In this document: positions 8,760 through 21,834 of the stretch, one piece after another
Layout: every line of letters starts with the position of its first letter
Position numbering within the stretch: position 1 is the stretch's first letter
Assembly: GCA_947176295.1 (NCBI GenBank)
Contig: CAMWQB010000012.1
Span: forward strand, 1 to 36,808
Direction of reading: 5' to 3'
DNA: 36,808 nt
DNA from: an uncultured Porphyromonadaceae bacterium
GTDB lineage: Bacteria; Bacteroidota; Bacteroidia; Bacteroidales; Muribaculaceae
The notes under the pieces: model-generated
What the model was told of the DNA's origin: nothing
Database searches by the model: none
What the model saw: only the letters and a program-made list of their open reading frames with translations
Program-made: the position numbers and the translations under genes

Positions 8760-8820
8760 AGGACTACGCTTCAAGGCATCTAAATCCCTTTAATGCCCGG
8801 GCGTAGTCCTCTTTCTTTCT
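8760..8820 (+). terminator. Terminator of the ECF sigma operon
   Basis: AGGACTACGC (8760-8769) pairs with GCGTAGTCCT (8801-8810), with an inner stem GGCAT/ATGCC, followed by a T/C-rich run CTTTCTTTCT. Confidence 0.75.
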
Positions 8821-8863
8821 AAACCAATCAATCCCACAGAATTTTTTTCTTATTACAGACAGA

Positions 8864-9667
8864 ATGCCTGTACGCACACCCGACGAAACGCTCAAAGCCG
8901 GATTCGACGCCGGCACGCGAAAAGCAGCCCTCACCTCCCGCGGCTCCTTCGGACGCTTCGCCGTCCTCTCGATCCTTGCCGGTGCATACATCGCTCTCGG
9001 CGGCGTCCTTTCCCTCATCGTTGGCTACGGATTCCCTGAAGCCACAGCGGCAAACCCCTCCCTCCAGCGCCTCCTCAGCGGCCTCGTCTTTCCCATCGGC
9101 CTTATGCTCGTGGTCGTGCTCGGTGCCGAGCTCTTCACCGGCAACAACGCTCTCCTCATGCCCCCGCTTATATCCCGACGCTTGACCTTCCTGTCCGTTG
9201 CCCGAAACTGGACACTCGTCTGGATCGGAAACTTTATCGGAGCCTTCGCAGTCGCCTGGTTCATGGTCTACCTCTGCGGCCTTACCACACCCGAGCCTTA
9301 CCACGGAGCCATTTGCCGCATTGCCGAAGCCAAGGTCTCCGCTTCCCCCGCTGTCATCTTCCTCAAAGGCATAGGCGCAAACTGGTGTGTCTGCCTGGCC
9401 GTCTGGCTCGCCCTCTCCGGGCGGCGTCTCTCCGAGAAGCTCATCGCCTGCCAGATTCCGGTCATGGCCTTCGTAATCCTCGGATACGAGCACTGCGTGG
9501 CAAACATGTTCTTCATCCCCCTGGGCATGATGGAAGGAGCTGACGTCAGCATCTACGACCTCTTTGCCGCCAACCTCCTCCCCGCCACCGTCGGAAACAT
9601 CGTCGGGGGTGCCGTATTCGTCGGATGTGCCCACTACTACTTATACCATAAGAACATCGAAAAATAA
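8864..9667 (+). CDS. Formate/nitrite transporter (FNT) family channel
   Basis: A 267-residue inner membrane protein of the FNT family (FocA, NirC, HSC), pentameric channels for small monovalent anions such as formate, nitrite or hydrosulfide. Six hydrophobic helices are visible. Family landmarks are AELFTGNN (88-95), Lys169 before GANWCVCLA (171-179), and the central histidine in GYEHCVANMF (His210). The substrate cannot be assigned; no pyruvate formate-lyase or nitrite reductase gene is adjacent. Its TAA overlaps the ATG of the next gene by 1 nt. Confidence 0.92.
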   Translation: MPVRTPDETLKAGFDAGTRKAALTSRGSFGRFAVLSILAGAYIALGGVLSLIVGYGFPEATAANPSLQRLLSGLVFPIGLMLVVVLGAELFTGNNALLMPPLISRRLTFLSVARNWTLVWIGNFIGAFAVAWFMVYLCGLTTPEPYHGAICRIAEAKVSASPAVIFLKGIGANWCVCLAVWLALSGRRLSEKLIACQIPVMAFVILGYEHCVANMFFIPLGMMEGADVSIYDLFAANLLPATVGNIVGGAVFVGCAHYYLYHKNIEK

Positions 9668-10347
9668 TGCAGGCCCCCAACTTTAGCTTCAGCATAGGCG
9701 ACGACATTCGCGCCGCCGCCCCGCGATACACCCTCCTCGCCATAGAACTCGATATCGACAACAAGCCCACATCCGATGCGCTCTGGTGCGAGATTCAGGC
9801 GGCAGCAGCAGCCGTAGCCCGCGATTTCCGCATGGAAGAAATCCGTCTGCGACCTGCAATAGATGCCACCCGCATCGCCTACAAAGCCCTCGGCAAAGAG
9901 CCCAACCGCTACCGCCCCTCAGCCGAAGCCCTCAGCCGTCGTGCAGTAAAAGGCCTCGAGCTCTATCGCACCCTCACCGCCATCGACCTCATTAATCTCA
10001 TATCTCTGCGCACGGGCATCAGCATCGGCGGATTCGACGCCGACCGCATCGACGGTACCCACCTCGCATATGGCCGCGGCCGCGTAGGAGAGCCGTACGA
10101 AGCCATCGGTCGCGGCCCCCTGAATATCGACGGCCTCCCCGTCTGGCGCGATGCAATAGGCGGGATAGGCACCCCCACATCCGACAACGAGCGAACAAAG
10201 CTCTCCGAGCACACCCGTCGCCTCCTTATGACCGTCAATATCTATCACGAAATGACCCGCAACGAAATCGACGCCCTCGCCTCCGAGATCATAGCCGCAT
10301 TCGAGCGCCACGCCGCCGCCACAAATCCCCGGGTAGCAGTAATTTAA
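9667..10347 (+). CDS. B3/B4 (PheRS beta-like) domain protein
   Basis: A 226-residue soluble protein made almost wholly of a B3/B4 domain, the fold found in the beta subunit of phenylalanyl-tRNA synthetase, where it edits Tyr-tRNA(Phe). Matching parts are RIAYKALGKEPNRYRPSAEALSRRAVKG, the helix DLINLISLRTGISIGGFD, and the C-terminal TPTSDNERTKLSEHTRRLLMTVNIY. Stand-alone members are common in bacteria and of uncertain role; editing of mischarged tRNA or amino acids is one proposal. It starts inside the stop codon of the FNT channel gene, so the two are co-translated. Confidence 0.85.
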   Translation: MQAPNFSFSIGDDIRAAAPRYTLLAIELDIDNKPTSDALWCEIQAAAAAVARDFRMEEIRLRPAIDATRIAYKALGKEPNRYRPSAEALSRRAVKGLELYRTLTAIDLINLISLRTGISIGGFDADRIDGTHLAYGRGRVGEPYEAIGRGPLNIDGLPVWRDAIGGIGTPTSDNERTKLSEHTRRLLMTVNIYHEMTRNEIDALASEIIAAFERHAAATNPRVAVI

Positions 10348-10360
10348 AATTCAGGCACGT

Positions 10361-10410
10361 AAAAAAATCCCGCCCGAATGTCGTGGCATAGGCGCGACAT
10401 CCCGGCGGGA
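10361..10410 (-). terminator. Terminator of tpx, possibly bidirectional
   Basis: GGCGGGA (10404-10410) pairs with TCCCGCC (10368-10374), with an inner stem CGACAT/ATGTCG. Read on the minus strand it ends in a run of seven T. It lies between two convergent genes and may also stop the plus-strand FNT operon. Confidence 0.85.
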
Positions 10411-10455
10411 ATTCCCATCTCTTGAGGAGAGAGGAGAATAAGAAAAATCGTATGA

Positions 10456-10968
10456 TTAATAGAACTTGCCCTCGAGCACGCGGATAGCAGCATCGTAGTC
10501 CGGTTCCATCGTAATTTCGTTCACGAGGTCCCTGAATTCAACCTTGCCATCCTTATCGATTATCAGAACGCAACGAGCCAAAAGCCCTTCAAGAGGACCA
10601 TCAACAAGCTGTAGACCATATTCCTGGGCGAACTTAGGCGAGCGGAACGCCGAAGCCACCACAACATTGTCCAGACCCTCGGTCGTGCAGAAGCGGCTCA
10701 TGGCGAACGGAAGGTCCATCGACACGCAAACCACCACAGTATCCTTCAGCTTTGATGCTTCCTGGTTGAAGCGGCGAACCGAAGCAGCGCACACTGGCGT
10801 GTCGAGGCTCGGAAATACATTCAGAACAACCGTCTTACCCTTGAAGTCATCAAGGCTGATCTCATTCAAGTCCTTTCCGATAAGTTTAAAATCAGGTGCC
10901 TTCGAACCAACAACAGGCACCTCGCCGTATGTGTGGCACGGCTGGCCGTTAAAATAGATTGTTTCCAT
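10456..10968 (-). CDS. tpx: Thiol peroxidase
   Basis: A 170-residue atypical two-Cys peroxiredoxin that reduces hydrogen peroxide and alkyl hydroperoxides in the cytoplasm, using thioredoxin. The peroxidatic cysteine is Cys60 in PSLDTPVCAASVRRFN and the resolving cysteine is Cys94 in SRFCTTEGL, both at the positions known for E. coli Tpx. Full length, monocistronic, with its own terminator. An imperfect -7 box TGTATTTG lies at 11008-11015 on the minus strand. Confidence 0.96.
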   Translation of the reverse strand: METIYFNGQPCHTYGEVPVVGSKAPDFKLIGKDLNEISLDDFKGKTVVLNVFPSLDTPVCAASVRRFNQEASKLKDTVVVCVSMDLPFAMSRFCTTEGLDNVVVASAFRSPKFAQEYGLQLVDGPLEGLLARCVLIIDKDGKVEFRDLVNEITMEPDYDAAIRVLEGKFY

Positions 10969-11051
10969 GAGGGAGTATTCAGTTATTTAGAGTTTCGTTT
11001 AAATTCACAAATACAACAAATCCGCCCCCCCAACGGTTCATCCCACATAAG

Positions 11052-11083
11052 TTTGTATAGTCCAAAAAAAATTACTACCTTTG
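11052..11083 (+). promoter_or_regulatory. Promoter of the tRNA-Arg gene
   Basis: TTTG (11052-11055), 20 nt, then TACCTTTG (11076-11083), a full match to the Bacteroidetes consensus. The expected start is about 105 nt before the tRNA. Confidence 0.7.
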
Positions 11084-11136
11084 CCCCGCACTTCGAGAAA
11101 AGGCATCCCAAAAGTCGAAAACTCGACCGTACTCAC

Positions 11137-11164
11137 TTGTAGGGACGTGCCTCCGGCACGTTTC
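11137..11164 (+). repeat. Dispersed element, type A
   Basis: TTGTAGGGACGTGCC begins the element; ACGTGCC and GGCACGT form a perfect 7-bp stem around TCC. It lies inside the predicted 5' leader of the tRNA-Arg transcript. Confidence 0.7.
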
Positions 11165-11195
11165 CAACACCCGCAAAAGCGAACATAAATAACAA

Positions 11196-11267
11196 GGCTT
11201 GGTAGTTCAACGGATAGAACAAGGGTTTCCTAAACCTTAGATCGGGGTTCGATTCCCCGCCGAGCTA
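11196..11267 (+). tRNA. tRNA-Arg (CCU)
   Basis: A complete cloverleaf: acceptor GGCTTGG with CCGAGCT (two G-T pairs), D arm with TAGTTCAACGGATAGAACA, anticodon stem AGGGT/ACCTT around the loop TTCCTAA (anticodon CCT), T stem with GGTTCGATTCC, and discriminator A at 11267. CCA is not encoded. Confidence 0.93.
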
Positions 11268-11358
11268 CAAATATCTGTAGATAAACAGCTTACGCTTGTA
11301 GAGCCTCTCCCCGGATGCCTCCTCTCATGCAGCGATGTGATTGCGATTAGAAAGGAGA

Positions 11359-11411
11359 GCAGGTCGTCTTGCTAACGCAAGCGGCTCACGCCGATAACCC
11401 GACCTGCGGCC
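11359..11411 (-). repeat. Dispersed palindrome, type B, expanded branched copy
   Basis: The outer stem GCAGGTCG (11359-11366) pairs with CGACCTGC (11400-11407). Inside are two perfect hairpins: CTTGC/GCAAG (11368-11381) and CGGC/GCCG (11382-11393). The result is a three-stem junction. As in the other copies, the minus strand continues into TCTCCTTTCT. Confidence 0.7.
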
Positions 11412-11439
11412 CCAAAAGGCGACAACCCGACCATTCCCG

Positions 11440-11469
11440 TTTGTAGGGACGTGCCTTCGGCACGTTGGA
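11440..11469 (+). repeat. Dispersed element, type A
   Basis: TTTGTAGGGACGTGCC is followed by a perfect palindrome ACGTGCC-TTC-GGCACGT and TTGGA. It is nearly identical to the copy at 11137-11164. Confidence 0.75.
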
Positions 11470-11528
11470 CGCAGAGAGTAAACCAAAGTCGCTAACAATC
11501 CCCCAAGTTAGAGTTTTCAGAATCGTCA

Positions 11529-11554
11529 GACAAGTCCGACTTGTCCGACAAGTC
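11529..11554. repeat. Alternating inverted octamers
   Basis: GACAAGTC (11529-11536), GACTTGTC (11538-11545) and GACAAGTC (11547-11554) alternate in orientation with a single C between, giving a 9-bp period. Looser versions flank it and a diverged version lies at about 205-250. Confidence 0.6.
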
Positions 11555-11617
11555 AGATCCGTCCGACCCCATTAGCTTGTCGGCCCCGCTAAAAACGAAA
11601 CTGAGAGCGGCAATGGC

Positions 11618-12106
11618 TTAAATCCTATAAATCAACGCCGACGCCTGCGCCGCTATACCCTCCCCGCGGCCCGTAAAGCCAAGCCGCTCCGTAGTCGTAG
11701 CTTTCACCGATACATCCCCCGGTTCCACGCACAGATCCGTCGCAATACGCGATTGCATCTCAGCAATATAAGGCCGCATTTTAGGAGCCTGCGCGATGAT
11801 GCTCACGTCCACATTTCCCACGCCCCAGCCTTCGCGTTCGAGAAGAGCGCGCACCCCACGCAAAAGCTTCCGCGAATCCACATCCTTCCATTCCGGGTCC
11901 GTATCAGGGAAGTGCGCCCCTATATCTCCCAGAGCCGCAGCCCCCAGGAGAGCATCGATAAGCGCATGGATAGCCACATCTGCATCGCTGTGGCCCAGCA
12001 GTCCCTTCTCATATGGAATTTCCACGCCGCCGATTATGCAGCGCCGCCCCTCAGTGAGGCGATGTACGTCGAAGCCCGTGCCCGTACGGAATGTCGGTTT
12101 TCCCAT
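11618..12106 (-). CDS. ispF: 2-C-methyl-D-erythritol 2,4-cyclodiphosphate synthase
   Basis: A 162-residue enzyme of the MEP isoprenoid pathway. It cyclises CDP-methylerythritol 2-phosphate, releasing CMP. Metal ligands are Asp13 and His15 (GFDVHRL) and His47; the GHSDADV loop (38-44) and the C-terminal [19 protein letters not shown] motif are intact. The ATG at 12106 is chosen because the longer frame would need a TTG. It lies 25 nt after porV and is probably read from the porV transcript. Confidence 0.95.
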
Positions 12107-12131
12107 TGTCGCGTCAGCCAAAAATTATATC

Positions 12132-13328
12132 TCAACGTTTGCCAAGGAGATCCTTTAGGCCATCCATGTCGAAAGTAAGGGTAAAGCGCAGCGTCTGGTC
12201 AAGAGGAGACGTCTGAGCCGTGGCAAGCATATACGACGCATCCAGTCGCACCACGTTCAGCGAGAAGCCCGCGCCAAAACCGAAATACTGGCGGTTGCCC
12301 TTGAATTCATTTTCGTAATAGTAGCCCGCACGCACAAAGAATTGCTGATTGTAGCTGTACTCGGCGCCGAAGCTCACGTTGATTTCGCGCATCTCCTCGC
12401 CGAATCCCCCCGGCGCATCGCTGAAACTCTTGAAGATACCCGTAAACGGGCTCATGTTCTTCCAGTCCTCGAGCGCGTTCAGGTAATCCCGCTGGCCCTC
12501 GGTCGTGTCCATATCGTAGTCAGCCTCGCGGGGACGCGCCGGCACCAGCAGCTTGTTCAGGTCCACCCCCAGCGAGAGTGTGTGGTAGTCAGCCAGCGGA
12601 AACATAAAGTTCGTGCCTATCTTCAGGTTCGTGGGAAGGAAGGCCGGATCCTCGCCGTTGTTGAAGGCTACCTTCGTACCGATGTTCGAGATATTCCATC
12701 CCCACGACCATTGGCACTCGTTCCGGCCGATGATAGGGTAGGTCGTGAAGTAGCCCGCGAGGTCGGCCGAGAAAGCCGAAGCCCCGGTGGTCTGGTCGCC
12801 GGCATACGAATCGCTGAAGCCCAGGTCCGAATAGATATAGCGGAACACCACACCCATCGAGAACTTCTCCGACAGCTTGCGCGAGTAGCCCATATCGAAG
12901 CTCAGCTCGTAGGGGTTGAGCGTCTGCGTGGCAGTCTCCGACGGGTCCTGCGACGTTACCTCACCCAGCGAGAAGTAGCGCAGCGAAGCGCTCACGGCCT
13001 GGTTGTCCGAGCTTCCCACCTTCCAGTAGCCCGCAAGATTGGCCAGGAATATGTCATTCACCAGTTTGCGCAGCCACGGCGTGTAGCTCAGGCTCACGCC
13101 CGCCGACGAGTACGCAAACGCATATTTCGACGGATTCCAGAACTGAGAGTTCGCATCCGGGTCCGTGGCCGCGCCAAGGTCGCCCATCGACGCCCCGCGC
13201 GCATCAGGTGCGATGCTCAGCGACGTTACGCCCGTTTCAATAGGGTTGAATTCATTCTTTTGAGCTCCGGCTCCGATGCTCGTCAGAGCAGCCACTGCCA
13301 GTATGATTGCAAGAATTTTAGTCTTCAT
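12132..13328 (-). CDS. porV: Type IX secretion outer membrane protein PorV (LptO)
   Basis: A 398-residue FadL-like beta-barrel protein. The signal peptide is about residues 1-22. The family hallmark follows directly: GVTSLSIAPDARGASMGDLGAATDPDA, then NSQFWNPSKYAFA. Alternating aromatic strands fill the rest, ending in LRFTLTFDMDGL near the C-terminus. PorV shuttles type IX cargo from the translocon to the PorU sortase. It lies downstream of a PorU-like gene, as porU-porV do in Porphyromonas gingivalis; a hairpin separates the two genes here. Confidence 0.92.
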   Translation of the reverse strand: MKTKILAIILAVAALTSIGAGAQKNEFNPIETGVTSLSIAPDARGASMGDLGAATDPDANSQFWNPSKYAFAYSSAGVSLSYTPWLRKLVNDIFLANLAGYWKVGSSDNQAVSASLRYFSLGEVTSQDPSETATQTLNPYELSFDMGYSRKLSEKFSMGVVFRYIYSDLGFSDSYAGDQTTGASAFSADLAGYFTTYPIIGRNECQWSWGWNISNIGTKVAFNNGEDPAFLPTNLKIGTNFMFPLADYHTLSLGVDLNKLLVPARPREADYDMDTTEGQRDYLNALEDWKNMSPFTGIFKSFSDAPGGFGEEMREINVSFGAEYSYNQQFFVRAGYYYENEFKGNRQYFGFGAGFSLNVVRLDASYMLATAQTSPLDQTLRFTLTFDMDGLKDLLGKR

Positions 13329-13372: not shown

Positions 13373-13406
13373 ACTCCCCGGAGCACGATTTATTGCCCCG
13401 GGGAGT
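13373..13406 (-). terminator. Hairpin between the PorU-like gene and porV
   Basis: ACTCCCCGG (13373-13381) pairs with CCGGGGAGT (13398-13406), a perfect 9-bp stem. On the minus strand it is followed by TATTTTAT, a weak tail, so it may attenuate reading from the PorU-like gene into porV. The plus strand has a better T run (AGATTTTTTT) but no plus-strand gene feeds it. Confidence 0.55.
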
Positions 13407-13427: not shown

Positions 13428-16400
13428 TTATTTAAGCACCATGAATTCCACCTGTTCGCTGCTTCCGAAGAGGTTGCCGCTGCTCAGCATGGCCTTTGCG
13501 CGATAGATGCCGTCGGCAACCGGAGCTCCCGAATTGTCTTTCAGGTTCCACACATAGGGGAAGCTCACGCCGTCGGCGCTGAACACCGTGTGGCCCAGCG
13601 AATCGAAAATCAGCAGGCGACAGGCAGGTGTCGATTCCCCGTTGTGCGTCATATCGAAGCTTGCTTCCGTGCGCACCGGAGCCGAGCCGTCGGTTTCATC
13701 CTCAGTTGCCCCGGCATCCTTGCAAGTCAGCTCGCCCTTGAGATCGGAGCTCAGGACGTAGAAGTCGAGTTCGGCCTCGCCCGTGCTGCCAAGATTGCTC
13801 TGCAGCGAGAGTTTCAGCGTGTGGCGTCCGTCCGACAGGCCCTCGAACTTACGGCTCAGTATCACCGTGCCTCCGTCCGTATATTCTGCTCCGTTGTAGA
13901 TGTCGCTGTAGCTCGTTGCCACATCGAGTGTCAGGCGTCCGGTCGTCGTCAGCCCGTTGTTGGCCATGTTGAGGCCGCTATCGGGGATTCGCACCACGGC
14001 ATAGAGCGTGAAGGCCGGGCCCGTCAGGTCGCCGTGGCCGAAGTCAGGACGGTCGATATACATCGACAGTATCTCCGGAGCCTCTGGATTCAGGCTCGAC
14101 TCAAAGTCCTCGCCCGGCTCGGCCAGATAGAGATTCGTCGCCGTCGTGGCGGCCATGTCGCCCGTAGTAGGATTCGTCGCCGTCAGAACCATGCGGTTGA
14201 GATCCCCGTAGTTCACGAGGTCAGGCAGCACAATCTCAGCTTCGAAGCGGCCGCCTTCCACCTCGAAGGGTGCCTCGCCGAGGGTCTGATGGTCGAGCTT
14301 CGAGCGCACCTTCAGCGTCTGAGGCTGCCCGTTGCCGGCCTTGTAGTCGGGATTGCTTACGCTCATTTCGTTGCCCTTACGAGGGGTTTCATACACTTCC
14401 ACCAGACCCGAACCCGAGAAGCCGGCCCCGCTCTTTCCGTCCTTGCGCACGATGTGGCCCGCAATCTTTATGGGGCTCAGAGGCGATATGCTCATCTTCT
14501 GCGATGCATCGTACGGGTTTCCGTCGATGGTTTCGATCACAAGCTCATAGGCAGGTACAGGCATCGGCACGGCCGGGTCGCCAAGATAATTGTAGCAGAG
14601 CGTATTCGTTACCGAAGCTGCGCTTGCGCCGGGCGCCGTAACAACCTCATTGCGTGCCTTCCGGAAGATTTCGCCGTAGGTCATGCCGGGAGTAGCATTT
14701 GCGTAGTGGCGGCAAACGGCCAGATACAGAGGCTGGTTGTACTCGAGATATACCGAGCGGGATGCGCCCACGCCGCCGATGATACCACCGCGCGAAAGCG
14801 ACATCATCGCATCCATAAGCGACGAACTACGGTCGAAGCAGAAGAGGTCGCACGACGAGAAGTGAGCGAACACAGGCGTGTCATACAGTTCGCGTCCCGT
14901 CTGGGCCATGCCCAAGATTCCCACGCCCGACACTCCCGTGGGGCCGCCGTGGCCCGAGTAGCCGAAGAAGCCTTGTCCGCGACGGAACCCGTCCATTATC
15001 ACGGTATGCGCCTCCGAAACTCCGCCCGTGATAGGATAGTCCACCGCATGTGCGCGGGTTACGGTCGCCCCGGGCATGGTCTTTTCAAGTTCCGCAGCGG
15101 CCTCTTCGCCCTGCTGGTAGTGTGCGTTCGAGTCGCCCTGGTCGCTCGACACAACCATGCGGAGATACTCCGCCGGGCTCGGCGGGTTCTGCATGAAAGC
15201 TTCGATTTTCGAATTGGCCGACTGTGCCTGCTGAGGAGTAGGCAAATTCAAACGTCCAACCGTGATGTTCGATTCCGTATAGTGGATCTGCGCAGGGTTG
15301 TAGGTGTCCTGAAGCATGCCGAAATACTGGTCCGACGTATAGCAGCGGTGGAGGTCGCGGGCATGTTCGGCAATTTCTACCTGGAAGGTAAGGAGGCGGT
15401 CCTCAGGCTCTATCACGATGCCGCGGTTGTCCCACGAGCCCGATCCGTACAGAAGAAGATATTTGAACACATCCGATTCACGGTCGTAGAACATCTTCGC
15501 CATGCGGCGGTAAGCCATCGGAGTGCGGGCGCCCGAGGAGAACTCATTGAACACGTCGTCCTGAACGAATACGCCCACGCGGATGCCCTGATACTTCTCG
15601 TGGATTGCCGCAAGAGCACGGGCCTCGTTGGCGAGAGATGCCGTGGTGATGATAGCCATCTCCGGCGTGGCAGTGCCGTGGATGTTGGTGTTGGCCACAT
15701 CCCCGCAGTAGCTCACCGCAGCATGCGTGGCCGACGGCGAGAAAACAACCATGCGACAGGGCTTTGTCTGCTGCGAATAGTAGTGGGGGAACGAGACGGT
15801 CAGGCGCCCTTCTTCGATGTTGTCGTTGCGGCGCACCTCATAGCTCGTGATGTTGAAAGGGTTGTCCACGTTCCAAACCACCGCGTCTAAGGGTGTGTCG
15901 CGCACCTGCACGCGCTGAAGCTCCTTGGCGGCATAGTAGTGCATGATGAGCTGTCGCTCATCGCCTAAGCGCGACTTGCGCGGATAGCACAGATACACCC
16001 TGTCTATCGCCGCGTAGGTCGACTTTGTCCCCGACGGCAGCGTCAGTTTCAGCGTTACGTCTTCGTCTTGGAGCGCGTCTGCAGAGCCATCAGGCTTGCG
16101 GAAACGCTTCTGGCCGTTGGCAATAGCGGAATAGCGCCAGTTGGCGTTCGTGTTCGAGTTGCACTTCCCGTCCTGGCTGTACGTTACTTTCACGTTACCC
16201 GTAACTTCGCTCTCAAGCGCCTCGGCCTGAGGCGAATTCATGTAGAAGTAATACGTGAAGTACGCATCATCCATCTTCACGTTGTTGCGGTCGCTCGGGT
16301 CGAAGTCCTTGATACGAAACGTGATTTCGCGGCTCTCGCCAGGAGAGAGGGCCTTGTCGTGATAGTACACGCCTGCCTTCATAGGGTTCTGTGCCTCATT

Positions 16401-16943
16401 CTCGTAGTAGTTCAGGCTGTAGTGGGAATAGAAGGTTGGATAATCTGCCGAGGTCGACGTTATCTTGTAGGCCGTGGTCTCTATTTTTTTCTGCGGCTGC
16501 GAATCCGTCAGGAAGTAGTAGCCCTTGCGGTCGTAGTAGTTGCGAGTCATCAGCCACGACTCATTGTGGATCGGCGACAGCTTTGCATCGCTCTCCCCGT
16601 AGAAGAGCACGCGCCCGTCTTCCGTATGGAGGCACGCCGTTTGCGGAAGGTCGTCTACATGTGTCGTCGTAAAGGTACCCCCGGTGTCCACAAGGGGGCT
16701 GTAGCCGAAGACTGTTACCTTCGTCGGGTCGTCGAAGCCCCACGAGCGCAGCTCGTCGTAGCTCACCTGGAAGATGCCTTCGCCTTCAACGGAAATTTTC
16801 ACCCAGTGGCCTTTCGAGAGTATCGACTCCGATTTGTAGTAGCTCAGAGGGTATGCCTCGGCCGTCGGAGAGGTGCCCGCAAGGGCAAGGACCACTCCCG
16901 CAACGGAAGCCGATAGTGTGTTCTTCAGTTTGAATGATGCCAT
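13428..16943 (-). CDS. PorU-like C25 cysteine peptidase, divergent paralog
   Basis: A 1171-residue exported protein of the gingipain (C25) family, PorU branch. The signal peptide is about residues 1-30. The N-terminal part (31-420) is beta-rich. The peptidase core follows, with VFNEFSSG (464-471), His665 in GYSGHGG and Cys698 in HFSSCDLF as the probable catalytic dyad. Ig-like regions and a FlgD-like C-terminal domain (VWNLKDNSGAPVADGIYRAKA) end it. PorU removes the C-terminal signal of type IX cargo and attaches A-LPS. Compared with the canonical features of the paralog at 18373-21834, the region around the dyad is altered (GHGGPTGVSG, SSCDLFCFD). It lies upstream of porV, which argues for a role in secretion. 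Confidence 0.85.
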   Translation of the reverse strand: MASFKLKNTLSASVAGVVLALAGTSPTAEAYPLSYYKSESILSKGHWVKISVEGEGIFQVSYDELRSWGFDDPTKVTVFGYSPLVDTGGTFTTTHVDDLPQTACLHTEDGRVLFYGESDAKLSPIHNESWLMTRNYYDRKGYYFLTDSQPQKKIETTAYKITSTSADYPTFYSHYSLNYYENEAQNPMKAGVYYHDKALSPGESREITFRIKDFDPSDRNNVKMDDAYFTYYFYMNSPQAEALESEVTGNVKVTYSQDGKCNSNTNANWRYSAIANGQKRFRKPDGSADALQDEDVTLKLTLPSGTKSTYAAIDRVYLCYPRKSRLGDERQLIMHYYAAKELQRVQVRDTPLDAVVWNVDNPFNITSYEVRRNDNIEEGRLTVSFPHYYSQQTKPCRMVVFSPSATHAAVSYCGDVANTNIHGTATPEMAIITTASLANEARALAAIHEKYQGIRVGVFVQDDVFNEFSSGARTPMAYRRMAKMFYDRESDVFKYLLLYGSGSWDNRGIVIEPEDRLLTFQVEIAEHARDLHRCYTSDQYFGMLQDTYNPAQIHYTESNITVGRLNLPTPQQAQSANSKIEAFMQNPPSPAEYLRMVVSSDQGDSNAHYQQGEEAAAELEKTMPGATVTRAHAVDYPITGGVSEAHTVIMDGFRRGQGFFGYSGHGGPTGVSGVGILGMAQTGRELYDTPVFAHFSSCDLFCFDRSSSLMDAMMSLSRGGIIGGVGASRSVYLEYNQPLYLAVCRHYANATPGMTYGEIFRKARNEVVTAPGASAASVTNTLCYNYLGDPAVPMPVPAYELVIETIDGNPYDASQKMSISPLSPIKIAGHIVRKDGKSGAGFSGSGLVEVYETPRKGNEMSVSNPDYKAGNGQPQTLKVRSKLDHQTLGEAPFEVEGGRFEAEIVLPDLVNYGDLNRMVLTATNPTTGDMAATTATNLYLAEPGEDFESSLNPEAPEILSMYIDRPDFGHGDLTGPAFTLYAVVRIPDSGLNMANNGLTTTGRLTLDVATSYSDIYNGAEYTDGGTVILSRKFEGLSDGRHTLKLSLQSNLGSTGEAELDFYVLSSDLKGELTCKDAGATEDETDGSAPVRTEASFDMTHNGESTPACRLLIFDSLGHTVFSADGVSFPYVWNLKDNSGAPVADGIYRAKAMLSSGNLFGSSEQVEFMVLK

Positions 16944-17070
16944 GTGTCTGTGATTGGTATGTCTTCTAAGAAGGAGTAAGTGTTTGTGTTGTGAGTGTGA
17001 TGATTGGAGAGTGAGGTATCTCGTTTGCGGCGCCCGGCGGCCTTGTTTATACCGCTCGCCGCTGATTGGT

Positions 17071-17634
17071 TCATTTCATTCGCAGATGCAGCTGCGGACC
17101 CGGGCTCAGCTCTGCCCGGAGTTCTGTGTCGGGCTCGAGAGCTATACTCTCCGACCCCAGGCCGCTCAGAGCCACAAGATCGCCCGTCTTGAAGGTGCAG
17201 TAGCGCGACAGCTCATGCACTGCTTCCTCAAAGCTTCGCCGCAGACCTTCGAAGCGGTATTGTCGGCGCCCTTCGCTGCTTTCTATTGTCAGCACGGAAG
17301 CCTCGTCGCTCAACGCCTCGCTGTCCGTCCCTTCGCCCGGAGCTATCGAGCGGTCCAGCAGCCCCACGACCCCGGAGGGCAGCATTTCGGCCTTCAGAGG
17401 GCTCACCACTGCCGCAAGAAGCATGGTGTCGAAGTAGCGGCCGGCAGATTTCCGCGGTATGTTCGTGCCCAGGCGCGAGATTCGCACCGCCGGACATATC
17501 TCGCCGATCCATTGCCCCAAATGGTCGGCCACAAAAAGTGGCTCCCCGGTGCGTAGTAGCGTCGAGTCTGTGGCAACGCGCACGCTCTTTATGCCGCCGC
17601 AGTCTTCGTGCATTCTTACTACTATCGCTTTCAT
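17071..17634 (-). CDS. Degenerate fumarylacetoacetate hydrolase-fold protein
   Basis: A 187-residue protein resembling the small FAH-family proteins of Bacteroidetes. Recognisable parts are EPLFVADH, RISRLGTNIPRKSAGRYFDTMLLAAVVSP (about 45-80) and SRYCTFKTGDLVALSG near the C-terminus, which match the family's ISKLGKNI, RYYDE and F-TLKTGDLLFTGTP. In active members the metal is bound by an E-x-E motif and a later Asp; here the second Glu position reads Cys (EIC) and no Asp follows RYFDTMLLAAVV in the expected place, so hydrolase activity is doubtful. The start at 17634 overlaps the rex stop codon by 1 nt (TGATG). Assignment rests on remembered family patterns. Confidence 0.7.
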   Translation of the reverse strand: MKAIVVRMHEDCGGIKSVRVATDSTLLRTGEPLFVADHLGQWIGEICPAVRISRLGTNIPRKSAGRYFDTMLLAAVVSPLKAEMLPSGVVGLLDRSIAPGEGTDSEALSDEASVLTIESSEGRRQYRFEGLRRSFEEAVHELSRYCTFKTGDLVALSGLGSESIALEPDTELRAELSPGPQLHLRMK

Positions 17635-18326
17635 CAGTCCGCTTGGCTGTGGGCCATGGTGGCCAGACGGTTGTACATCAGTGCAAGGTGCGAGTAGATC
17701 GACGTATTGGCCACCACGGTATTGTCCGAGCAAACCCGGATTCGCCGAGGCGTGAAGTTCCACAGACCTCGCACGCCGGCCGCCACGAGCTCATCAGCCA
17801 CGTCCTGCGCAGCATCGAAAGGCACAGTCAGGATGCCGACGCTCACTCCGAGTTTCTTCACGAGCGTCGGAAGCTCTTCAGGCGATACAACGGGAATGCC
17901 GCAAACGGTGCTTCCCTGAAGCTCGGGATTGATGTCCACCCCCGCAACCACGTTCAGCCCGTAGCGCTGCAGACCCTGGTCGCTCATAAGCGCTCCTCCG
18001 AGGGAGCCAACGCCTGCCACCACCGCATTGTGCCGGAGATCGAAGCCCAGAAAGTCTCGGAGCTTCCGCTCGAGGGCCGCCACTTCATAGCCTATGCGCG
18101 TTTTCCCGCGAAGGTTCAGGAAGTAGAGGTCCTTGGCTATCTGAGAGGCATCCACATTCAGCTCCCGCGCTATCTGTGTCGACGACACGTGGCTCACCTT
18201 TCGGGCCTTCAGCGTCGACAGATAGGCCAGATACCACGGAAGACGACGCAACGTGGGCTCGGGAAGAATCACGCTCTCTCCTCCCGACGCCACTTCGCTT
18301 ATGCCGTGTTTACCCGTCTGTGCCAT
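17634..18326 (-). CDS. rex: Redox-sensing transcriptional repressor Rex
   Basis: A 230-residue repressor that binds DNA when the NADH/NAD+ ratio is low and lets go on binding NADH. The winged helix covers about residues 22-85 (PTLRRLPWYLAYL, then VSSTQIARELNVDASQIAKDL), and the Rossmann domain begins with VVAGVGSLGGAL (102-113), followed by GVDINPE and the C-terminal swapped helix (VVANTSIYSHLALMYNRLA). The start at ATG 18326 is preferred over an upstream TTG, because a promoter box lies across that TTG. It is co-translated with the FAH-like gene. Confidence 0.94.
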   Translation of the reverse strand: MAQTGKHGISEVASGGESVILPEPTLRRLPWYLAYLSTLKARKVSHVSSTQIARELNVDASQIAKDLYFLNLRGKTRIGYEVAALERKLRDFLGFDLRHNAVVAGVGSLGGALMSDQGLQRYGLNVVAGVDINPELQGSTVCGIPVVSPEELPTLVKKLGVSVGILTVPFDAAQDVADELVAAGVRGLWNFTPRRIRVCSDNTVVANTSIYSHLALMYNRLATMAHSQAD

Positions 18327-18338
18327 TTTTTCAACTTG

Positions 18339-18370
18339 CAAATATACAAATTATTTTCCGAATAGACAAG
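18339..18370 (-). promoter_or_regulatory. Promoter of rex
   Basis: On the minus strand CTTG (18367-18370), 20 nt, TATATTTG (18339-18346). The start codon is 12 nt after the box, so the leader should be only about 5-8 nt. The promoter lies just after the stop codon of the upstream porU gene. Confidence 0.65.
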
Positions 18371-18372
18371 AT

Positions 18373-21300
18373 TTATTCCGCAGTTACGGCTATGCGCCGC
18401 GAAGCCGTTTCATACGTCTCGCCATCGGCCTGTATCGTCGCACGATACACGTAGATACCGCGCTCTACACGGCGCCCTGAGTAGTCGCAGAGATTCCAGC
18501 TTACAGGCACCGACTCAAACATATCGCTTGGTCCCTGTGCCGCCCCGGTCCACACCGGCTTGCCCATCAGGTTGTAAACCGTTATCGTTACCGTGGCCAT
18601 GGATTCGGGCCGGTCGTGGCTGACGTAGAAGTTTGCAACGGTCGACGCCGGATTCGTGTCGGTGTAAACGTCGTATATCACAGGAGCTTTTTCGTTGTCC
18701 ACAAAGAACTTGATGCTCCGCACGGCGCGATTGCCCGACGTGTCCCAAACTTCCATCTCCAGCGTGTGCGCTCCCTGGGCCAGGTTGTCCATCGTGTAGA
18801 CGATGCGACCGCCGATGCGCCCGTCTTCAAAGGGCGTATAGCCCGTATAGAGCTGGCTGTAGACCGTCCGCCCGTCGAGCACGGCTCTCATCTGCCGCCC
18901 AAGGCCCGTGGTCGAGATGTTGATGCCCACGTTGTCGCTCACCTCCGCGATGATTACCGGAGAGGGATTCACTACCGACCCGTCCGTGAAACTTCCGTGG
19001 TTCAGCACAAGGGTCTCGATGCGCGGAGCCTCCGTGTCGGGCGTCTCGCTCGCAGTCTCGCCGAAAACGTAGAGTTTGCGGAAGAGCCCGGCTGCCTCGG
19101 TCTTGCGCGAGGTGTTTGCCTCGGCCGTGCTGCTCACCGCATAGAGCGAGAGCGTGGCCGGACGATAGTTCTGCCCCACAACCTCAGGCATGGCCACATG
19201 CAGTTCAAATGTCCCGTTTTCAACCTTGGTAGCGCCTCCGGTCAGGAGCGAGCCGTAGTCCTCATACAGGCATTCCTTGCCGTCGCCCCATCCATAGGTC
19301 GTTACGGAACGCTCTGCGTCGTAGAGCTCTGCAAGAAGGCTGCCGTTGAAGTCCGTCAGCGTCTCGCCCGTCAGCGGGTCCGTGATGCGGCCGGTCAGCG
19401 TGTAGCTGCCCCCGGCACCAAGCACGAGGTCTGTCCCGTCCTCAGGAAGGTCGATATCCACCACATTGTCCGGGATGGCGAGTTGAAGCGCCGGATCGCC
19501 CATGAACACATAGCGGAGCCTGTTGGAATTGTCCACTCGCTCGCCGTGCGAATTGCGGATGTCGTTTTTGGCCCGGCGATATATTTCGCCCGGCGTGAGG
19601 AAGTGGCCCTTGGCGTCGCGTTGGGCCAGTGCGCGGCCCATAGCTGCCGAGAGCATACCGTTGTCCGAGATATACACCGGGCGCACAGCGCTTATCGCGC
19701 CGATGCTCCCGCCGTGGCGTTCGAGGAATATAAGCTCGCCGCCGCTCACGGAGTTCGAGTCCCAGCGGAGGAAATCGCACGTCGCCGTGTAGAGGAAAGG
19801 CCAGTGCCGCAGATACATGTTGTTCATGTCCGTGAAGGTCAGCAGCCCGTTGCCCGTCCACGATGTCGTGTTTGCGTGGCCTATGAAGTTCCACCAAACC
19901 ACACCTTCCTCCAGGTAGCGGAAAAGGTCCTTGCGCGCGTCGGGATAGTTCGTGCCGACGCGCCCGTATGCGTCAAGATATATTTTCCTGAGGAAATGTT
20001 GCTGGCCCTCGGTTGCTTCGATGCCCGCGAGGAAGGCCTCGGTCTGTTGCAGATGGATGCCGCTGTCCTCATCGTCGGCAGTGAAAAGAAAACGGTGTTT
20101 CCATAGCCCCGTCCGTGCCTTCGTGCTGTATTCTATGATTTTATCCACCACCGACGAAGCTTGCGTGGCCGACGTGATGGGGATGCGGCCCACCGCTACG
20201 CTCAGGTAGTCAAGGCCAAGCCGGGTGCCCGTGCCATCTTCAAGCATGGCAATGAAGTCGTCGGTCGTGAAGCCTTCCGTGTCCGACAGCGACGAGCGGT
20301 TCTCCCGTGGCATCCACATCGGAAGGGTGGGGTAGTCGGCCGTGGCCATCGACGTAGTCAGGTGCCGGGGGTCGTAAGTCGGGCGCGAGAAAAGCATCAC
20401 ATAGCGCAGCGGTGCTTCCGCATTCGCCGCCTTCGAGCGGTCGTAGAGCATCTTGAGATACTTCCTTATGCCGGAAGGATCGGGCGCTCCCGACGAGAAC
20501 TCGTTGTAGATTTCCTCGGGGTCGGTGATTACCACGCTCATTCCCTCCGAGCTATGATGCTTCGCCAGGCGCTCGGCTGCCTGGCGGTACGACCCGGGGG
20601 CAATTATCACCATCTCCGGATACACCGCCATAGGCGCATGCAGGTTTTGCGGCTGCACGCGCTTGAAGTTGCTTGGCTCAGGAAGAGCTGCATCGGGTTT
20701 CCACGCCGCATAGTCGCGCATGCCGTTGTAGGGCGTCGACCATTGCAGCCCTCCGTTTCCGCTCACGGCGCCCAAGGTTCGGATTTTTGTCGGGTCCGTT
20801 ACGTCCCACACCCGCGTATCCGTTGTGCCGTCGGCAAGGATGGCGCCCGTGCCGGAAACGCTGAACCTCAGGTATCCTTCCTTCGGAAGACGCAGATTCC
20901 GTTCGTAGTTCACCGAGAGGTAGTTCAGGTTGGCCGACTTTACCGATGTCCCGTTCAGAAGCCGGACGCCCACCGTCAGCTTCTTTCCCGAAGGAAGAGC
21001 ATATGTGTGGCGCGTTATGTTTTCAACTCCGTGATAGTGCTGGCTGTTGGTGGAGGTGCCCAGTGCATCGCTGCTCGCGCTCGCAAGCGTCGTGCCGTTG
21101 ATGGTGAATTGCAGGCGCGGCCCCGGTGTCAGCGACTTGGCCACGAAGGAGCATTCGAGCCAGCCCCCGGGCGCAGCTTCCGAATCAGTTGCCGGGTCGA
21201 TAAGCGTGAAGTCGAAGCTCCGCGATGTATTCGTCCGATAATCTTCGCCCACAAGAAGCGGGCCCGCTTCTCCGGGCGATACGAGATCCTTTTCGTGGTG

Positions 21301-21834
21301 TGCACGTTCCATGAAGGTCGTGGCCGCACGGTTCCCCGGCTCACCCGTGCCTATCTTTTCAGCCTTGGCTCGCTCGCTCCCCTCAGGGCCCTCGCTCAGG
21401 AAGTAGTAGCTCCATTCTGTATATGGGTTCACCTCATACCGGTAGAAGTCGCCTTGCGACTGCACCCAGCGCCCGCTCCCCGTGGCATAGAACACCAGTC
21501 CGCGACCCTCCACATACTCCGAGTAGACTTCCGGAAGGTCGTCCGTATAGTTCTCGAGCGTCAGGGCATCGGCAATCCTGCGTCCGCCATAGCCGAATAC
21601 ACGCACCTTCGACGGGTTCGTGAAGCCAAGCGTGCGCAGACGCGCCGGAGTGATGATATACAACCCCTCGTCCTCAACGCCCACGCGCACCACCGGCGAG
21701 CCTCCAGCAAGGAGCGAACGCTCCGTGTAGGTGCTCAGCTCAAAAGCCCTCAGGGACGGCGCACACGCTATCGTTAAGGCACAGAGCAGGAAAATGGGTA
21801 ACAATCGATATATTTTCTTTGTCCTAATATGCAT
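18373..21834 (-). CDS. porU: Type IX secretion sortase PorU (C25 peptidase)
   Basis: A 1153-residue exported C25-family peptidase. The signal peptide is about residues 1-30. Features close to canonical PorU are IYNEFSSGAPDPSGIRKYLKMLYDR (442-466), WWNFIGHANTTSW with catalytic His653, TATCDFLRWD with catalytic Cys686, then SVSGGEL, VYISDN and the helix GEIYRRAKND. The C-terminus is a FlgD-like domain (FYVSHDRPESMATVTITVYNLMGKPVW, VSWNLCDYSGRRVERGIYVYRA). It should cleave the C-terminal signal of secreted cargo and link it to A-LPS at the cell surface. It is separated from porV by rex, the FAH-like gene and a paralog. Confidence 0.88.
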   Translation of the reverse strand: MHIRTKKIYRLLPIFLLCALTIACAPSLRAFELSTYTERSLLAGGSPVVRVGVEDEGLYIITPARLRTLGFTNPSKVRVFGYGGRRIADALTLENYTDDLPEVYSEYVEGRGLVFYATGSGRWVQSQGDFYRYEVNPYTEWSYYFLSEGPEGSERAKAEKIGTGEPGNRAATTFMERAHHEKDLVSPGEAGPLLVGEDYRTNTSRSFDFTLIDPATDSEAAPGGWLECSFVAKSLTPGPRLQFTINGTTLASASSDALGTSTNSQHYHGVENITRHTYALPSGKKLTVGVRLLNGTSVKSANLNYLSVNYERNLRLPKEGYLRFSVSGTGAILADGTTDTRVWDVTDPTKIRTLGAVSGNGGLQWSTPYNGMRDYAAWKPDAALPEPSNFKRVQPQNLHAPMAVYPEMVIIAPGSYRQAAERLAKHHSSEGMSVVITDPEEIYNEFSSGAPDPSGIRKYLKMLYDRSKAANAEAPLRYVMLFSRPTYDPRHLTTSMATADYPTLPMWMPRENRSSLSDTEGFTTDDFIAMLEDGTGTRLGLDYLSVAVGRIPITSATQASSVVDKIIEYSTKARTGLWKHRFLFTADDEDSGIHLQQTEAFLAGIEATEGQQHFLRKIYLDAYGRVGTNYPDARKDLFRYLEEGVVWWNFIGHANTTSWTGNGLLTFTDMNNMYLRHWPFLYTATCDFLRWDSNSVSGGELIFLERHGGSIGAISAVRPVYISDNGMLSAAMGRALAQRDAKGHFLTPGEIYRRAKNDIRNSHGERVDNSNRLRYVFMGDPALQLAIPDNVVDIDLPEDGTDLVLGAGGSYTLTGRITDPLTGETLTDFNGSLLAELYDAERSVTTYGWGDGKECLYEDYGSLLTGGATKVENGTFELHVAMPEVVGQNYRPATLSLYAVSSTAEANTSRKTEAAGLFRKLYVFGETASETPDTEAPRIETLVLNHGSFTDGSVVNPSPVIIAEVSDNVGINISTTGLGRQMRAVLDGRTVYSQLYTGYTPFEDGRIGGRIVYTMDNLAQGAHTLEMEVWDTSGNRAVRSIKFFVDNEKAPVIYDVYTDTNPASTVANFYVSHDRPESMATVTITVYNLMGKPVWTGAAQGPSDMFESVPVSWNLCDYSGRRVERGIYVYRATIQADGETYETASRRIAVTAE

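Follow-up and report, generated by a model that had tools for sequence, protein, structure and literature searches.

What is known of surface display by the type IX secretion system (T9SS) comes mostly from a small number of species in which a single PorU has been studied. In the attachment complex as described in two papers, PorV brings cargo to PorU, which is itself held through PorV, and PorU cleaves the C-terminal domain (CTD) from the cargo and joins the cargo to anionic lipopolysaccharide (A-LPS) supplied by PorZ (PMC10202324, PMC5562754). How PorU chooses effectors for release as opposed to attachment 'remains to be unravelled', in the words of a review (PMC10202324). The stretch of DNA analyzed here, termed the window, comprises 36,808 nucleotides of contig CAMWQB010000012.1 (assembly GCA_947176295.1) from an uncultured member of the Muribaculaceae and contains two divergent porU genes, both on the minus strand. 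The copy on the porV side (13428..16943) is designated PorUa and the copy upstream of rex (18373..21834) is designated PorUb. The account that we favor, with confidence a little better than even, is that the two are old PorU paralogues in which PorUb serves as the housekeeping sortase and PorUa as a specialized second peptidase/sortase.

Two PorU proteins in the window

Both window proteins are PorU, members of the T9SS signal peptidase/sortase family. The first-pass annotation had described two PorU-type proteins of 1171 (PorUa) and 1153 (PorUb) amino acids, each with an NEFSSG motif and a His/Cys dyad, and this is confirmed by the open reading frames, by the NCBIfam PorU model (NF033707; 453 bits for PorUa and 797 bits for PorUb, cut-off 420) and by an alignment that places H665/C698 of PorUa and H653/C686 of PorUb in common columns. 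The Peptidase_C25 scores are 183.6 and 267.4 bits, respectively, and PorU of Porphyromonas gingivalis (PDB 6za2) is matched by PorUa at E 8.6e-67 and by PorUb at E 1.5e-120. The genome from which the window comes (G000, 94% complete) has no C25 match besides these two. A C-terminal T9SS-type domain is present in PorUa, and the FlgD-like C-terminus claimed for both proteins is seen as FlgD_ig and CHU_C matches, but only at sub-threshold scores of 13.7-15.3 bits versus a cut-off of 27. The view that PorUb looks canonical while PorUa is altered near its dyad holds: in addition to the difference in PorU score, PorUa has L700 at a site that is F in 93% of PorUb and in 88% of single-copy PorU, and several residues conserved across other PorU are replaced in the PorUa alignment, with H and C retained.

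It is unlikely, in our estimate, that PorUa is instead a secreted surface protease, itself T9SS cargo like the gingipain-type C25 peptidases, whose sortase role has been lost. PorUa matches the PorU model and 6za2 along its whole length. The best Foldseek match of its AlphaFold model (predicted local distance difference test score, pLDDT, 85.9) is 6za2 (E 1.5e-64, whole length), and in this comparison, made for PorUa only, the full PorU fold is recovered, with an alignment of 849 residues that runs between positions 28 and 1067. Gingipains match the same model with the catalytic half. The locus beside porV has also been retained, and in a C25 tree of 59 rows, a chosen subset treated by a quick method, 45 PorU rows, PorUa among them, are split from 14 non-PorU C25 domains with a value of 99 in the Shimodaira-Hasegawa-like approximate likelihood ratio test (SH-aLRT); gingipains were not among the rows, and the downstream copies of two loci, L107 and L147, are unplaced. 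A gingipain-like origin of the 13428 copy, the outcome that the first-pass annotation had named as fatal to its proposal, is rejected on this grouping. One CTD spacing, of 21 residues in 77 of the 80 PorUb and of 14 residues in 82 of 89 PorUa (those of the 93 with both anchors), was considered as a sign of cleaved cargo. It was dropped because PorZ of related genomes has the 14-residue spacing too, so that it is no mark of cleaved cargo, and because the spacing is 15 residues in 7 of 37 single-copy PorU.

Trees, gene order and one-sided loss

The duplication is genuine, as had been suspected from the window, and the two copies form two clades in trees. In a PorU tree of 278 sequences (FastTree; open frames of at least 900 amino acids with a PorU segment of at least 700, identical inner segments left out), the rex-upstream copies make up a clade with a support of 0.989 (80 rows). 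The copies that follow the FAH-like gene make up a second clade of 95 rows (0.851), and the support is 1.0 for the 93 rows without L107 and L147. A PorU tree of 51 rows, likewise a chosen subset and made by a quick method with IQ-TREE, gives SH-aLRT values of 100 for PorUa (20 rows), 97 for PorUa with L107 and L147, and 95 for PorUb (16 rows), and has the single-copy Coprobacter-type PorU as sister; in this tree the PorUa of L164 is a long branch and 15 rows have an odd letter composition. The simplest reading of these sequences is that PorUa and PorUb are old paralogues from one duplication before the family split. An independent duplication in Barnesiella-type rows is not rejected by the approximately unbiased (AU) test (p 0.147), and one duplication is favored over two because the gene order is shared, with the Candidatus Barnesiella record L147 and L107 having an arrangement identical to that of the window's family.

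A single-copy order of rex-FAH-porU-porV-ispF is found in Parabacteroides, in some Coprobacter and Paludibacter records and in others, with rex sometimes unseen, while the window's family often has porU-rex-FAH-porU-porV-ispF. We counted 41 loci with the order porU-rex-FAH-porU, of which 39 are distinct. The complete six-gene order is seen in 13 (11 distinct), and in some relatives (e.g., G002) the two porU copies are on separate contigs or distant from each other. By this gene order, the comparison of which had been proposed in the first-pass annotation, the diverged PorUa occupies the ancestral porU site and the canonical-looking PorUb the new one. In the history that we propose, an ancestor of the Muribaculaceae and some close relatives with a rex-FAH-porU-porV-ispF locus would have acquired an additional porU on the upstream side of rex, after which PorUb would have stayed nearer the canonical form and PorUa, left beside porV, would have diverged while keeping the dyad and the PorU architecture.

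The loss of PorU copies across the family is one-sided. Among 137 family genomes (the window's own 94% complete, the others at least 95%), one C25 match is found in 35, two in 60 and three to nine in 42, where some matches are not PorU and not each was checked. Hence at least two matches are present in 102 of the 137, and neither a single PorU as the norm, as had been assumed, nor a decayed copy in all relatives describes this family. Single-match genomes occur in 8 of 20 sampled genera, and the survivor is PorUb in 32 of the 32 that were examined out of the 35 (G411, G417 and G432 were left out). In one of these single-copy genomes (G077) the surviving PorUb is split over two frames, and in an apparent exception (G408) the two ends of the PorUb-like gene are on two contigs. 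PorV is above the cut-off in all 28 single-copy genomes searched, and the 20 porV regions that were inspected have rex-FAH-porV without PorUa in six cases (L319-L323, L326), FAH-porV in two (L324, L338), and an FAH gene not directly beside porV in 12. PorUa was never found in a genome lacking PorUb, with part of the multi-copy genomes classified, and a family genome that is 62% complete (G084) gave no PorU match. This pattern makes PorUa the dispensable member of the pair, and PorUb is the likely general or housekeeping sortase because it is the copy that remains in all of the single-copy genomes examined. Tandem arrays of two to four PorUa copies occur in some lineages from the gut and rumen. 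Two records (L104, L119) have four tandem PorUa between the FAH gene and porV, and the copies at matching positions mostly group across both records.

The genes that accompany the pair are also on the minus strand. The neighboring rex and porV were identified correctly in the first-pass annotation: rex (17634..18341), a redox-sensing repressor gene between the two porU genes in the conserved order, scores 254 bits with NF003994, and porV (12132..13328), for the T9SS outer-membrane shuttle, scores 496 bits with NF033710 (cut-off 250). The conserved rex-FAH-porU-porV-ispF block ends with ispF (11618..12121; PF02542, E 2.6e-69). Between porUa and porV is a terminator-like stem (13373..13406) of 13 pairs followed by a T-rich run, found by pattern scan only, and its stem is the longest among six such sites in the region, where 8.2 are expected in shuffles. 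The two genes may therefore be separate transcription units. The FAH-like gene (17074..17646) matches PF01557 only at 16 bits, below the cut-off of 23.9. Its counterparts at this locus in single records of Parabacteroides, Coprobacter and Barnesiella score 155-171 bits with PF01557, while two Muribaculaceae copies that were scanned score 16-21 bits and are without the NY..HN.E, YETE and FTGTP stretches, which we take to be those of the active site, in an intact frame. From its sequence, the gene at 17074-17646 looks like a former FAH-family enzyme.

Constraint on PorUa and its proposed place in the attachment complex

PorUa is under purifying selection despite its faster evolution. The identity of PorUa is lower than that of PorUb in 520 of 528 comparisons (33 loci), and the ratio of nonsynonymous to synonymous substitution rates (dN/dS) in close pairs is 0.09-0.15 in PorUa clade A1 (5 pairs), 0.10-0.19 in clade A2 (14 shown of 29) and 0.06-0.16 in PorUb (14 shown of 55). 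The catalytic His and Cys are both intact in 93 of 93 PorUa sequences (A1 37/37, A2 56/56), a set that excludes the downstream copies of L107 and L147, both of which retain the two residues as well. PorUa as an inactive copy is rejected on this invariance, and PorUa is probably catalytically active, judging from its sequence. In clade A2, to which the tandem copies of L104 and L119 belong, the active site has Cys-Cys in 92%, where most other PorU have Thr-Cys. The PorUb rows have His in 78 of 80 and Cys in 79 of 80, as one (L143) is without both and another (L101) is unread at His. The L143 copy (8784-12227) belongs to the PorUb clade and has Arg for His and Ala for Cys, making it a natural dead sortase, and another contig of its assembly (L141) has intact PorUb and PorUa copies.

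The faster evolution of PorUa, the single-copy genomes in eight of the sampled genera and a stop codon within PorUa in one relative (G089) are what would be expected if PorUa were redundant, or a duplicate in decay, without a role of its own. This explanation is nevertheless very unlikely in view of the dN/dS values of <0.2 in the pairs shown, the invariant dyad, the persistence of at least two C25 matches in most of the family and the tandem PorUa copies in some of its lineages.

Other parts of the attachment complex, and cargo, are present where they were sought: PorZ and type A CTD matches were found in all 13 genomes searched. The window's genome has PorV, PorZ and eight type A CTD matches, where the CTD model also gave matches in 2 of 14 genomes used as controls. 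Among the 10 family genomes in the 13, the presence of PorUa shows no trend with the count of type A CTD proteins. One genome from the lineages with amplified PorUa (G017; four C25 matches; contigs C14, C20 and C49) has three PorZ above the cut-off, two of them in tandem, and the other 12 have one each.

In the housekeeping role proposed for PorUb, it would cleave the CTD from PorV-borne cargo and join the cargo to the surface glycan. We infer that PorUa, which is tied to porV by gene position, docks on PorV and, at the same PorV-fed site, would act as a second, specialized signal peptidase/sortase that serves part of the cargo or a different acceptor. One-sided loss fits such a specialization and does so equally for a distinct cargo, a distinct acceptor glycan or a non-sortase role. 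It is also conceivable, at rather low probability, that PorUa acts as a partner of PorUb or regulates it within mixed dimers, in which one subunit would hold back or position its counterpart, with no separate line of cargo. PorU of P. gingivalis is described as dimeric, one monomer being inhibited by a hairpin from its partner (PMC10202324; title of 6za2), PorU:PorV subcomplexes are estimated at ∼2:2 (PMC5562754), PorUa was not found alone in any genome (with the multi-copy genomes classified in part), and the dead copy in L143 means that a PorU without the catalytic residues can co-occur with intact copies. However, a pure regulator need not retain both catalytic residues in every one of 93 sequences, and PorUb persists on its own in all 32 of the single-copy genomes that were examined.

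Comparison with known systems

Each of the two proteins alone is of a known kind, and the asymmetric two-PorU arrangement was not found described in the literature searched, a search that was without most subscription journals. Like PorU as defined by NF033707 and by 6za2, the window proteins share length, domain order, the C25 domain, the His/Cys dyad, a C-terminal T9SS-type domain and a porV neighbor, but here the genome has two diverged copies, and PorUa is 19-22% identical to 6za2 by structural alignment. PorU2 (NF052324), a relative among the C25 proteins, carries the annotation of putative T9SS sortase; membership of this group is rejected, as the scores of the window proteins are 80 and 76 bits versus a cut-off of 450. 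The gingipains RgpB and Kgp match chiefly over the catalytic part, unlike the full-length match to PorU. Other Bacteroidales families have direct tandem pairs (porU-porU), as seen in 14 selected genomes (L189-L202), and these resemble the window in that porV adjoins in all 11 of the 14 loci in which porV was detected. They differ in having a separate place in the tree and no rex or FAH gene between the copies; the four copies scanned in two of them (L190, L200) score 1222-1374 bits as PorU.

A gut family in which a second PorU appears to be old and is conserved offers a natural system for asking what determines PorU specificity, and the repeated losses of PorUa among close relatives provide matched comparisons with and without it. 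More tentatively, and with less than even confidence, the Muribaculaceae may have a two-sortase T9SS in which PorUb carries out anchoring in general and PorUa, which some lineages have amplified, provides a second route of anchoring or release with its own cargo or acceptor, by analogy with the housekeeping and specialized sortases of Gram-positive bacteria.
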